From: Coriobacteriia bacterium
GTDB taxonomy: Bacteria > Actinomycetota > Coriobacteriia > Anaerosomatales > Anaerosomataceae
Assembly (NCBI GenBank): GCA_016938135.1
Contig: JAFGVD010000030.1
Span: forward strand, 1-64,000
Length of the DNA: 64,000 bases
Direction of reading: 5' to 3'
Shown here: piece by piece, positions 7,906 to 17,317 of the stretch
Position numbering within the stretch: the stretch's first letter is position 1
Layout: each line of letters opens with the position of its first letter
Position numbers and translations under genes: made by a program
The notes under the pieces: generated by a model
The model's database searches: none
Seen by the model: only the letters and a program-made list of their open reading frames with translations
Told to the model about the DNA's origin: nothing

Positions 7906-8589
7906 TTATGACTTCCGTCTAGCTTCGATGTCCTTCTCGCTCACCGAAGGCTTCACGACTATCTTCGACGCCACGTCTCGGCCGAGCGCATACCGGGACT
8001 GCCCCACCTCGATCATCAGCGGCCCGTTGAACGGCGCGACATCGCACACGAAGACCGAGGTGCCGGGGTACATGCCCAGACTCGCGAGGTAGGACAACAG
8101 ACTGTCATCCTCATCCTCCACGCGTACTATCTCCACCGAGGCGCCTTCACCGTAGTCGCACAGCGGTTCGCCGCTGACCACGGCAACGGTGCCGTCGCTG
8201 CTGGGGATAGGATGTCCATGTGGGCAGAAAGCGGGGTTCTCCAAGAAGACCTCAAGCGCGGACTGCACCTTGGGTGAGAGCGCATGCTCAAGCAGGCATG
8301 CCTCTTCGTGGACCTCGTCCCAGGAAAGCCCAAGCGCATCCACCAAGAAGCGCTCAGCCAGGCGGTGCCGACGAACGATGCTGATCGCTTCCGCAGTGCC
8401 CGTTGTCGTCAGGGCAACGCCGTTGTCCGGTCGTGTGATCAGATCCTTTGCCTGGAGCCGTTTCAGCGTCGCGGTGACCGTCGGCCCCGAAACGCCCATG
8501 GCTTCGGCGATCTGAGCAGGACGCACCTCTCCCCGTTCGGCGAGTTTATAGATAGTCTCCAGGTATTCTTCGAGGGTCGCACTCGGCAT
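7906..8589 (-). CDS. DtxR/IdeR-family metal-dependent repressor with FeoA-like domain
   Basis: A 227-residue regulator: winged helix-turn-helix (1-65), dimerisation/metal domain (66-135), and a C-terminal SH3-like FeoA domain (about 145-218). HEEACLLEH (94-102) matches the DtxR pattern, with Cys98, Glu101 and His102 aligning with the DtxR primary site (C102, E105, H106). In the first metal ligand position, where DtxR has Met10, I see Glu8 in LEEYLETIY, closer to the Asp8 of MntR, so iron rather than manganese specificity is likely but not certain. It shares an operon with feoB, which it presumably represses when iron is replete. GGAGG lies six bases before the ATG. Confidence 0.9.
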   Translation of the reverse strand: MPSATLEEYLETIYKLAERGEVRPAQIAEAMGVSGPTVTATLKRLQAKDLITRPDNGVALTTTGTAEAISIVRRHRLAERFLVDALGLSWDEVHEEACLLEHALSPKVQSALEVFLENPAFCPHGHPIPSSDGTVAVVSGEPLCDYGEGASVEIVRVEDEDDSLLSYLASLGMYPGTSVFVCDVAPFNGPLMIEVGQSRYALGRDVASKIVVKPSVSEKDIEARRKS

Positions 8590-8638: not shown

Positions 8639-8664
8639 TCTTAGGCAATGCTAAAGGCTAAGAC
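8639..8664 (-). promoter_or_regulatory. Candidate DtxR/IdeR-type operator before the regulator-feoB operon
   Basis: The region contains TTAGGCAATGCTAA (8641-8654) followed by AGGCTAAG, an AT-rich imperfect inverted repeat about 50 bases upstream of the regulator start. It partly matches the iron box TTAGGTTAGSCTAACCTAA: one half is good, the other poor. Position and content suggest autoregulation. I cannot define the promoter with confidence. Confidence 0.35.
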
Positions 8665-8736
8665 ATGCCGAGACAACCCCCACCGTGGTCCCGAACACGA
8701 TTTCCCCGAGCAAGATGCCGTCCCACACCCATCATT

Positions 8737-8788
8737 CCGTTCAGCAAGCGAGTGCTACCGTTCAGCACAGGCGAGCAGCCGTTCAGCG
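8737..8788 (+). repeat. Three direct repeats CCGTTCAGCR with an exact 21-bp period
   Basis: CCGTTCAGCA starts at 8737 and 8758, and CCGTTCAGCG at 8779. The 11-base spacers are unrelated in sequence. The 21-bp spacing is two helical turns, so all copies face the same side of the DNA. The last copy ends 28 bases before the -35 of the promoter at 8817. This is the arrangement expected for an activator or cooperative regulator of the RNA gene downstream. The rest of 8665-8816 shows nothing else. Confidence 0.6.
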
Positions 8789-8816
8789 CATATTGCGACA
8801 ATCTCCCTAAAACGCC

Positions 8817-8845
8817 TTGACGGTGGTCTGACGCTGTCGTAGAGT
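8817..8845 (+). promoter_or_regulatory. Sigma-70-type promoter for the probable ncRNA
   Basis: TTGACG (8817-8822) and TAGAGT (8840-8845) are separated by exactly 17 bases. This is one of the best promoter matches in the window. It points into a 249-base region with no plus-strand open reading frame. The predicted transcription start is at about 8851-8853, exactly where a long-range RNA stem begins. Confidence 0.7.
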
Positions 8846-8850
8846 CATAG

Positions 8851-9064
8851 GCGTCCCAAGAAGTCGGACCGAGCGGACCTCGAAAAGTAGCGTACCAGCA
8901 GCTGCTCGCGAGGGTTTCGGAGCGAAGGTTAGCGTAAGCAGGCCGGAGCCGAGAGATTTCTCAAGAGTGTGAAACGGGAAGCTATGGAGTAGGGATCTTG
9001 CAGGCGAGATCTCTTGGGACATCTCTTTGCAGCAACGAAGACGGCTCCCACGGGGCCGTCTTCT
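8851..9064 (+). ncRNA. Probable structured non-coding RNA, about 210 nt, class unknown
   Basis: The transcript would begin with GTCCCAAGA (8853-8861), which pairs perfectly with TCTTGGGAC (9012-9020), closing a domain of about 170 nt. Directly inside the 3' arm a seven-pair hairpin GATCTTG-CAGG-CGAGATC (8994-9011) stacks on it. A strong terminator hairpin follows at 9037-9063. It has its own promoter and no downstream gene on the same strand (queD converges), so it is not a riboswitch of a neighbour. Size and rod-like closure recall 6S RNA, but I recognise no conserved 6S sequence. It lacks the signature elements of tmRNA, RNase P RNA and SRP RNA. Confidence 0.6.
9037..9063. terminator. Strong hairpin between ncRNA and queD, probably bidirectional
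   Basis: GAAGACGGC (9037-9045) pairs with GCCGTCTTC (9055-9063), with three further inner pairs and a three-base loop. There is no clear U-tract on either side, as is common for actinobacterial terminators. It sits between two converging transcripts and could serve both. Confidence 0.7.
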
Positions 9065-9094
9065 GGTTACCCGGGCGGCCTGCTCCCCTGACCG

Positions 9095-9460
9095 CTACCG
9101 ACGGTATGTGATCTTCGCTATCGGTGACTCCCAAACAGCGACTTCTTTGACGGTCACTTCTTTGCCCACGACCTCACCCAGACGTTCATAGACCACTCGT
9201 GAGAGGTTCTCGGCGGTCGGGCTGAGCACATCGAACGGCGGCACCTCGTTCAGATACGCATGATCGTACTGTTCGAGAACAGCGCCAAGGTCCGCTTTGA
9301 GCTGTTTGAAGTCGTAGACGATGTCGATGCCGTCAAGATCCTCGCCCTGGACCGTCACCTCGACGTCCCACGTATGTCCGTGCAGGTTCTTGCACTCGCC
9401 AGGGTATCCCCGCAGTGCGTGAGCAGCATCAAAGTGGCCCTTGACCGTGAGTTCGTACAT
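9095..9460 (-). CDS. queD: 6-carboxy-5,6,7,8-tetrahydropterin synthase (QueD/PTPS family)
   Basis: A 121-residue enzyme of the PTPS/QueD family, which converts dihydroneopterin triphosphate to 6-carboxytetrahydropterin for queuosine and other deazapurines. HFDAAHAL and LHGHTWDV supply the zinc histidines; GECKNLHGH has the catalytic Cys. PTAENLSR is also conserved. The start with AGGAG five bases upstream gives MYELTVKGHFDAAH; a longer reading into the upstream gene is not needed. It lies eight bases after the RNase H-like gene, in the same minus-strand cluster. No other queuosine genes are in the window. Confidence 0.9.
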   Translation of the reverse strand: MYELTVKGHFDAAHALRGYPGECKNLHGHTWDVEVTVQGEDLDGIDIVYDFKQLKADLGAVLEQYDHAYLNEVPPFDVLSPTAENLSRVVYERLGEVVGKEVTVKEVAVWESPIAKITYRR

Positions 9461-9468
9461 GTCGGCTC

Positions 9469-9933
9469 CTAACCGAAGAGCGTTCCCTGGCCGCCGTCGC
9501 ACGCGGGCCAGACCGCATCGCCTACCGTTGCTTGCGCATCCATCGCCCTGTTGGCGAGGTCATCCGCTTCTTTGTTGAGTTCACGACGTACGTGGACGTA
9601 TTCGACTGAACCGATCTTGGCCGCTGCAGCACGCGCACGTTCGTAGAGAGGCTTCAGACCGGGATGCTTGACCCGGTATAGGCCCTTCATCTGCTTGACC
9701 ACGAGCTCACTGTCGGCCTTAACCGTCAGCCGCTGCACCCCATGGGACGCCGCGCTCTCCAAGCCCCAGATGAGCGCCTCGTACTCGGCCACGTTGTTGG
9801 TGACCTCTCCAAGGTAGCGACCCCCCTCGCAGGTGATGATGCCGGTGGGGTCCGTAAGCACGATGCCGGCCCCTGCCGGGCCCGGATTGCCTCTCGATCC
9901 GCCGTCCGTGTGGAGAGTGAACGCGGAGCTCAT
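9469..9933 (-). CDS. RNase HI-family protein
   Basis: A 154-residue RNase H fold protein. It begins MSSAFTLHTDGGSRGNPGPAG; TDGG gives the first catalytic Asp and AEYEALIWGL the Glu, followed by KADSELVVKQM with the next Asp and KEADDLANRAMD with the last. The family degrades RNA in RNA-DNA hybrids. The ATG overlaps the TGA of the upstream zinc-ribbon gene (ATGA), so translation is probably coupled. It resembles the short, free-standing RNase HI-like proteins found beside zinc-ribbon coiled-coil genes in actinobacteria. Whether it is the main RNase H of the cell cannot be told. Confidence 0.88.
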   Translation of the reverse strand: MSSAFTLHTDGGSRGNPGPAGAGIVLTDPTGIITCEGGRYLGEVTNNVAEYEALIWGLESAASHGVQRLTVKADSELVVKQMKGLYRVKHPGLKPLYERARAAAAKIGSVEYVHVRRELNKEADDLANRAMDAQATVGDAVWPACDGGQGTLFG

Positions 9934-13340: not shown

Positions 13341-13604
13341 GAGATGCGCTCCTGATCCTCGTTAAACCGTCACATCTCCCCCTGTCAAGGGTAACGTAAT
13401 GCGGGTATCGGGTGAAGCGCTCCTTCCATCCGGCGATGAGTGCCTTTTGCCATCACATTCAAACCGTCCAGCGAATCGAACATGCGGCCGCTTGTCCAAG
13501 ACACGACTGCATGATAGGTTGTTCTCCCGCTCCTGGGAGCGCTATGTGATCGGACATCCATGGTTGATAGCCACAGGATGGCGAGAGCCCACTGGATTGC
13601 CTAG
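13341..13604. other. Intergenic stretch with no gene seen
   Basis: No credible coding frame is present on either strand. It holds the probable promoter region of the unknown gene ending at 13340. The remainder (13400-13600) shows no repeat or strong secondary structure that I can support. Confidence 0.5.
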
Positions 13605-17184: not shown

Positions 17185-17190
17185 CCTGAA

Positions 17191-17306
17191 CCTTCCTTCT
17201 ACCATCCGGACTATACCGTCGGCCCCGGAATCTCACCGGGTCGGCCCCTTGCGGGGTTCGCGGGCTGTCACCGCCGGTGGGGAATCTCACCCCGCCCTGA
17301 AGAAAG
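17191..17306 (-). promoter_or_regulatory. FMN riboswitch (RFN element)
   Basis: The conserved RFN pattern is complete on the minus strand: GGGCGGGGTGAGATTCCCC, CCGGCGGTGACAGCCCGCGA, CCGGTGAGATTCCGG and GGTATAGTCCGGATGG. The P1 stem is CTTTCTTC (17306-17299) paired with GAAGGAAG (17199-17192). The 3' arm of P1 contains the ribD ribosome binding site, so ligand-stabilised P1 hides it; I see no separate terminator hairpin. The element starts 11 bases after the rpe stop. TAGAAT (17320-17315), which includes the rpe stop codon, could be a -10 for a transcript starting at P1, though no -35 is clear. Confidence 0.95.
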
Positions 17307-17317
17307 CAATGCCTATT

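Follow-up and report, generated by a model that had tools for sequence, protein, structure and literature searches.

An apparently uncatalogued structured RNA of the Anaerosomatales with LytTR-like repeats upstream of its promoter

We found that the 64,000-nucleotide stretch of DNA analysed here (the window) carries a conserved, structured RNA element of about 169 nt, which has its own promoter and is preceded by phased LytTR-like direct repeats (Table 1). That 8853-9020 is a real, stand-alone noncoding RNA gene of an uncatalogued family is well supported by the comparison of homologues. A sequence-only reading of the same DNA had proposed a new noncoding RNA with its own promoter, and the proposal held: there was no Rfam match, the covariation was strong and the promoter was kept in 57/57 non-redundant copies. 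That reading included neither the LytTR-like array nor how deeply the RNA is conserved. Strongly conserved large structured RNAs missing from Rfam are uncommon, and the Anaerosomatales are an order of wide distribution, largely subsurface. The covariance model and the conserved core, along with a candidate regulator, now make the function of the RNA testable.

Table 1. Features of the RNA locus, in window coordinates
Feature	Coordinates	Strand	Remarks
dtxR/mntR-family metal-dependent repressor	7906..8589	-	divergent neighbour
LytTR-like half site 1 TCCGTTCAG (-117)	8736..8744	+	21-bp phase; -117 sites in 21 copies
LytTR-like half site 2 ACCGTTCAG (-96)	8757..8765	+	21-bp phase
LytTR-like half site 3 GCCGTTCAG (-75)	8778..8786	+	21-bp phase
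Degenerate fourth repeat, A/T-rich, in register (weak, -54)	8799..8807	+	~10 bp upstream of -35
-35 box TTGACG	8817..8822	+	TTG(A/C) at expected place in 57/57 copies
-10 box TAGAGT	8840..8845	+	TA..GT: T, A, G, T kept at 93, 93, 80, 93%
Structured RNA element	8853..9020	+	conserved; covariance model R1, 152.7 bits
Closing helix P1, 5′ arm	8853..8865	+	helix 1: 13 pairs, 99.6% of cells paired, compensatory changes
Core GUACCAG	8892..8898	+	57/57 in order, 18/20 in second class
Apical hairpin GC-GUAA-GC, GNRA tetraloop	8932..8939	+	GNRA in 57/57
Core GAAACGGGAAG	8971..8981	+	GAAANGGRA in 57/57 (order), 20/20 (second class)
Closing helix P1, 3′ arm	9008..9020	+	helix 1
Pyrimidine-rich tail ATCTCTTT, directly 3′ of P1	9021..9028	+	conserved; U-rich in second class
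12-pair hairpin, probable terminator without U-run	9037..9063	+	sequence not conserved
queD	9095..9502	-	convergent neighbour

When the region was compared with 61 relatives using blastn, 58 matched at E<=1, mostly strongly and over query bases 3-180. In almost all of them the terminal hairpin lay beyond the conserved part, and for this reason the conserved element was taken to be 8853-9020. The search of known families by covariance model that had been suggested as a check gave no match over the RNA in Rfam 15, either across the window at the gathering score or within 8780-9120 at E up to 10, and 19 homologue loci likewise gave zero matches over the RNA. No earlier description of the RNA was found in Rfam 15 or in a library of open-access papers. 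Coding on either strand was rejected, since element lengths were mixed modulo 3 and stops occurred in every frame; for the same reasons a 71-aa minus-strand frame (8807-9022) is no conserved gene. The claim that there is no open reading frame thus stands in the sense that none is conserved among homologues.

A covariance model was built from the copies of the order and then run on sampled genomes. It found the RNA in 59 of the 61 Anaerosomatales genomes sampled, with 1-3 copies each, and in 0/237 other genomes of class Coriobacteriia. In a phylum-wide draw of 396 genomes, the full-length matches outside the class scored 52-95 bits and all belonged to one second actinobacterial class, in which a broader model detected the RNA in 26/36 genomes. 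A mobile element was considered and rejected, as zero matches were found in viral contigs or in plasmid and phage collections. Some genomes also gave weak second matches of 36-55 bits, mostly shorter (G528:C14:21907, G480:C20:3431, G509:C127:11608 and G372:C4:120004), perhaps paralogues of the RNA that have diverged.

Single-sequence folding was unremarkable (z -1.65 for 8851-9068 and -0.88 for 8851-9025), and the case for structure therefore rests on homologues. In an alignment of 57 non-redundant copies from the order, with a mean identity of 70%, the RNAalifold consensus was a rod composed of a 13-pair closing helix (P1), short helices with purine-rich internal loops and a short apical hairpin, with an energy of -95.5 compared to -36.6 ± 3.9 in column-shuffled alignments of the 57 copies. 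Pairs were counted in an alignment that was not fitted to structure. For 46 pairs, 93.4% of cells were paired, 24 of the 46 showed double changes and 0/500 shuffles equalled the observed pairing values, while sliding the partners by 1-3 columns as a control lowered pairing to 32-46%; the covariation test in homologues that had been proposed as a check thus came out in favour of the RNA. A conservative tree-based permutation null gave 0 pairs at E<0.05 over all column pairs, and its ranking was topped by 39-137, 41-135 and 10-168, which are proposed pairs with double changes. When 20 second-class sequences were folded alone the same architecture was obtained (-77.6 vs -13.3 ± 2.5). Collectively, these comparisons indicate that the predicted structure is well supported and that the RNA family is old, its shape and core letters being common to two distantly related Actinomycetota classes.

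The consensus also bore on particular helices. The complementary ends noticed earlier, GTCCCAAGA (8853-8861) and TCTTGGGAC (9012-9020), do pair with each other. The hairpin thought to stack on the 3′ arm (~8994-9013) had to be given up: only in this one sequence could it form locally, its pairs mostly fail in homologues, and there the bases of the 3′ strand pair long-range with the 5′ side instead (columns 18/170: CG 45, GC 4, UA 3). A classic sarcin-ricin module (AGUA/GAA) is not claimed, since GAA was common but RAGUA occurred in only 28/57 copies.

The promoter, TTGACG-17-TAGAGT, is present at 8817-8845 as had been read from the sequence (1 found, 0.4 expected). The 12-pair terminator fared less well: a hairpin does exist at 9037-9063, but it has no U-run, the terminator search returned 0 and its sequence is not conserved. 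In one second-class family (L229-L231, L234) an additional conserved hairpin, CCCCCATGGTTAATAGAGGCACGGGTCTCGAGAACCCACTGGGGG, was seen directly 3′ of the RNA, and ARAGORN identified it as neither tRNA nor tmRNA.

Direct repeats of the form ACCGTTCRK, in an exact 21-bp phase, precede the promoter in nearly all copies of the order. The region upstream of the RNA gave an autocorrelation peak at 21 bp in the 57 copies, and when these were anchored on the -35 box the CCGTT cores fell at -80, -59 and -38, with CC 93-100% conserved; at the position of the fourth repeat, A/T was conserved at -17 to -13 relative to the -35 box. Upstream box matches numbered 108, compared to 10.9 ± 2.9 in shuffled sequence and 7 on the opposite strand, and were piled at -117/-96/-75. 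Within the 64-kb window, half-site pairs 1-2 and 2-3 score highest of all 21-bp pairs, with 25.1 and 25.8 bits against 18.0 for the next, and perfect box-pair matches in the host genome occur only at the two overlapping pairs of the RNA. The form of the array, direct repeats at 21-bp spacing upstream of a promoter, fits published LytTR repeats such as CCCGCTTGG-12-ACCGCTTAG (PMC6193735). The ACCGTTCRK repeats look like binding sites of a LytTR response regulator, and with such putative sites upstream the RNA is probably a regulated structural RNA.

LytTR-to-RNA wiring is familiar from Firmicutes, and the array would extend it to Actinomycetota. VR-RNA (VirR, Clostridium perfringens) is one RNA in a LytTR regulon; the likeness lies in an RNA under a LytTR-type regulon, which here is putative and taken from the upstream repeats. 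RNAIII also codes for delta-haemolysin, whereas the RNA described here has no conserved frame, and to our knowledge SpoZ has no sequence relation to it. RNAIII of Staphylococcus aureus (agr P3, AgrA) is a stand-alone regulatory RNA with LytTR-type direct repeats before its promoter (PMC4227749), an arrangement common to both RNAs, although no Rfam similarity to RNAIII was detectable. SpoZ (RgaR, Clostridioides difficile) has VirR/LytTR-type repeats with a key G at -72 and -51 (PMC10602386). With the first G of GTCCC as the reference point, the G of our third repeat falls at -72; SpoZ comes from a different phylum, and the array described here consists of three clear repeats plus a fourth that is degenerate.

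Wiring like that of AgrA-RNAIII (PMC4227749) and RgaR-SpoZ (PMC10602386) would suit a base-pairing sRNA, whose rod would open in its variable parts and let these pair with target mRNAs, as in RNAIII or other LytTR-driven sRNAs. We regard this as unlikely, because the strongest conservation is found at paired or internal-loop core positions, a GNRA tetraloop (in five loop sequences across the 57 copies) sits at the apex, and unpaired conserved runs are 3 nt at most, a length that favours protein or tertiary contacts at the core over a long seed; a variable stretch of the RNA could nonetheless pair with targets. Letters kept at >=97% across both classes cluster in P1 and the core GUACCAG / GAAA.GG.AA. 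We infer a protein partner and action in trans. The reading that we prefer, and consider fairly probable, is that the structured RNA binds protein and acts in trans, and that in this order a LytTR regulator determines its dose. Its own sigma-70-type promoter would drive the RNA, and the transcript would end shortly after the closing helix. Acting in trans, the rod would serve as a scaffold or decoy that binds protein, and the invariant internal-loop core GUACCAG / GAAANGGRA would make the contact. A LytTR-domain response regulator would bind the phased repeats in Anaerosomatales and set the RNA dose, and from established knowledge of LytTR regulators it would be expected to activate transcription.

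The host genome encodes two proteins of the REC-LytTR response regulator type, and one candidate regulator is an orphan REC-LytTR protein (G000:C13:38831-39115). LytTR proteins were found in 51/52 genomes, and with both LytTR families near universal across the order, co-occurrence cannot single out the regulator; in several genera, the orphan LytTR gene itself has boxes at a distance of 2-3.5 kb. LytTR regulation of the RNA is suggested by what is established for LytTR regulators, and the identity of the regulator is putative. Among relatives, the box pattern was over-represented compared to a reversed control in most, not all, genomes, and boxes precede HD-GYP, adhesin, subtilase (protease), cytochrome and recombinase genes, examples that were hand-picked from the pattern hits. 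Boxes before surface-protein genes and before HD-GYP genes, which probably encode c-di-GMP phosphodiesterases, suggest that a regulon for surface attachment or signalling would include the RNA; LytTR control of cyclic-di-GMP turnover via HD-GYP genes is possible. Three genera (L216, L217, L220) had LytTR-like box pairs ahead of HD-GYP genes.

In the second class the array is lacking and its place is taken by A/T-rich tracts, with promoters close to consensus, suggesting that LytTR control lies outside the core function of the RNA. These upstream regions, together with near universality in the order and conserved synteny, would fit a constitutive housekeeping RNP RNA (ribozyme or scaffold) to which LytTR control is a minor local addition. 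Since most of the phylum is without the RNA and the array is retained in nearly every copy of the order, we find this somewhat unlikely. Broader than our preferred reading of a LytTR-dosed, protein-binding RNA is a proposal that we advance only tentatively: an ancient actinobacterial RNP RNA class with a unique purine-rich core and GNRA cap, ancestral to the two classes and standing like 6S or raiA. In Anaerosomatales, a two-component LytTR system would have captured its transcription. If true, the capture would tie a structural RNA to surface attachment and to signalling by cyclic-di-GMP.

The likeness to 6S RNA pointed out in the sequence-only reading stands for size and closure and goes no further. 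Its size, paired ends, own promoter and rod shape might suit a second RNA of the 6S type, one that would hold RNA polymerase, yet this is very unlikely: the RF00013 covariance model was unmatched here and has a separate match in the genome (G000:C27:4128-4298, 48.3 bits), no Rfam similarity appeared even at E 10, and the RNA differs in its invariant core and GNRA cap. The large central bubble of 6S RNA mimics open promoter DNA, whereas the conserved part here has small internal loops only in the folds of both classes. SRP RNA (RF00169) was also rejected, with no match at the RNA and the true SRP RNA elsewhere (G000:C3:81685-81780, 71 bits). As the genome has both elsewhere, the RNA is neither 6S nor SRP.

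Because queD is on the opposite strand, the statement that no gene follows on the strand of the RNA proved right. Of the 63 distinct copies from the order, 31 are flanked by dtxR (divergent) and queD (convergent), and 18 stand behind gatB and form one clade; the remaining 14 include several with flipped or tandem dtxR neighbours and several with short flanks. In many second-class loci queD or rnhA again adjoins the RNA, and the queD-rnhA neighbourhood conserved in both classes points to vertical inheritance. The age of the neighbourhood with queD and dtxR might suggest a cis-acting, riboswitch-like leader of one of them, and in a few genomes (L025, L043) the RNA does precede dtxR on the same strand. 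These are exceptions, since in the main contexts the genes downstream lie on the opposite strand rather than following directly on the same strand as for a riboswitch; with queD commonly convergent, dtxR divergent and other copies behind gatB, a cis leader is very unlikely. The RNA was seen to be duplicated around dtxR, in tandem or inverted, at L015, L039 and L043.

Several other features were observed. The sequence TTAGGCAATGCTAAAGGCTAAG at window 8640-8663, upstream of dtxR, resembles, by eye, an operator of the DtxR/iron-box type. A neighbouring zinc-ribbon protein bears the NCBIfam name CdsZ, for which the literature search gave Chlamydia and unrelated papers only. The third-best LytTR-like 21-bp box pair of the window (18.0 bits) is located at 13421-13473 (+), and an FMN riboswitch was detected at 17190-17308 (-) with 117.6 bits.
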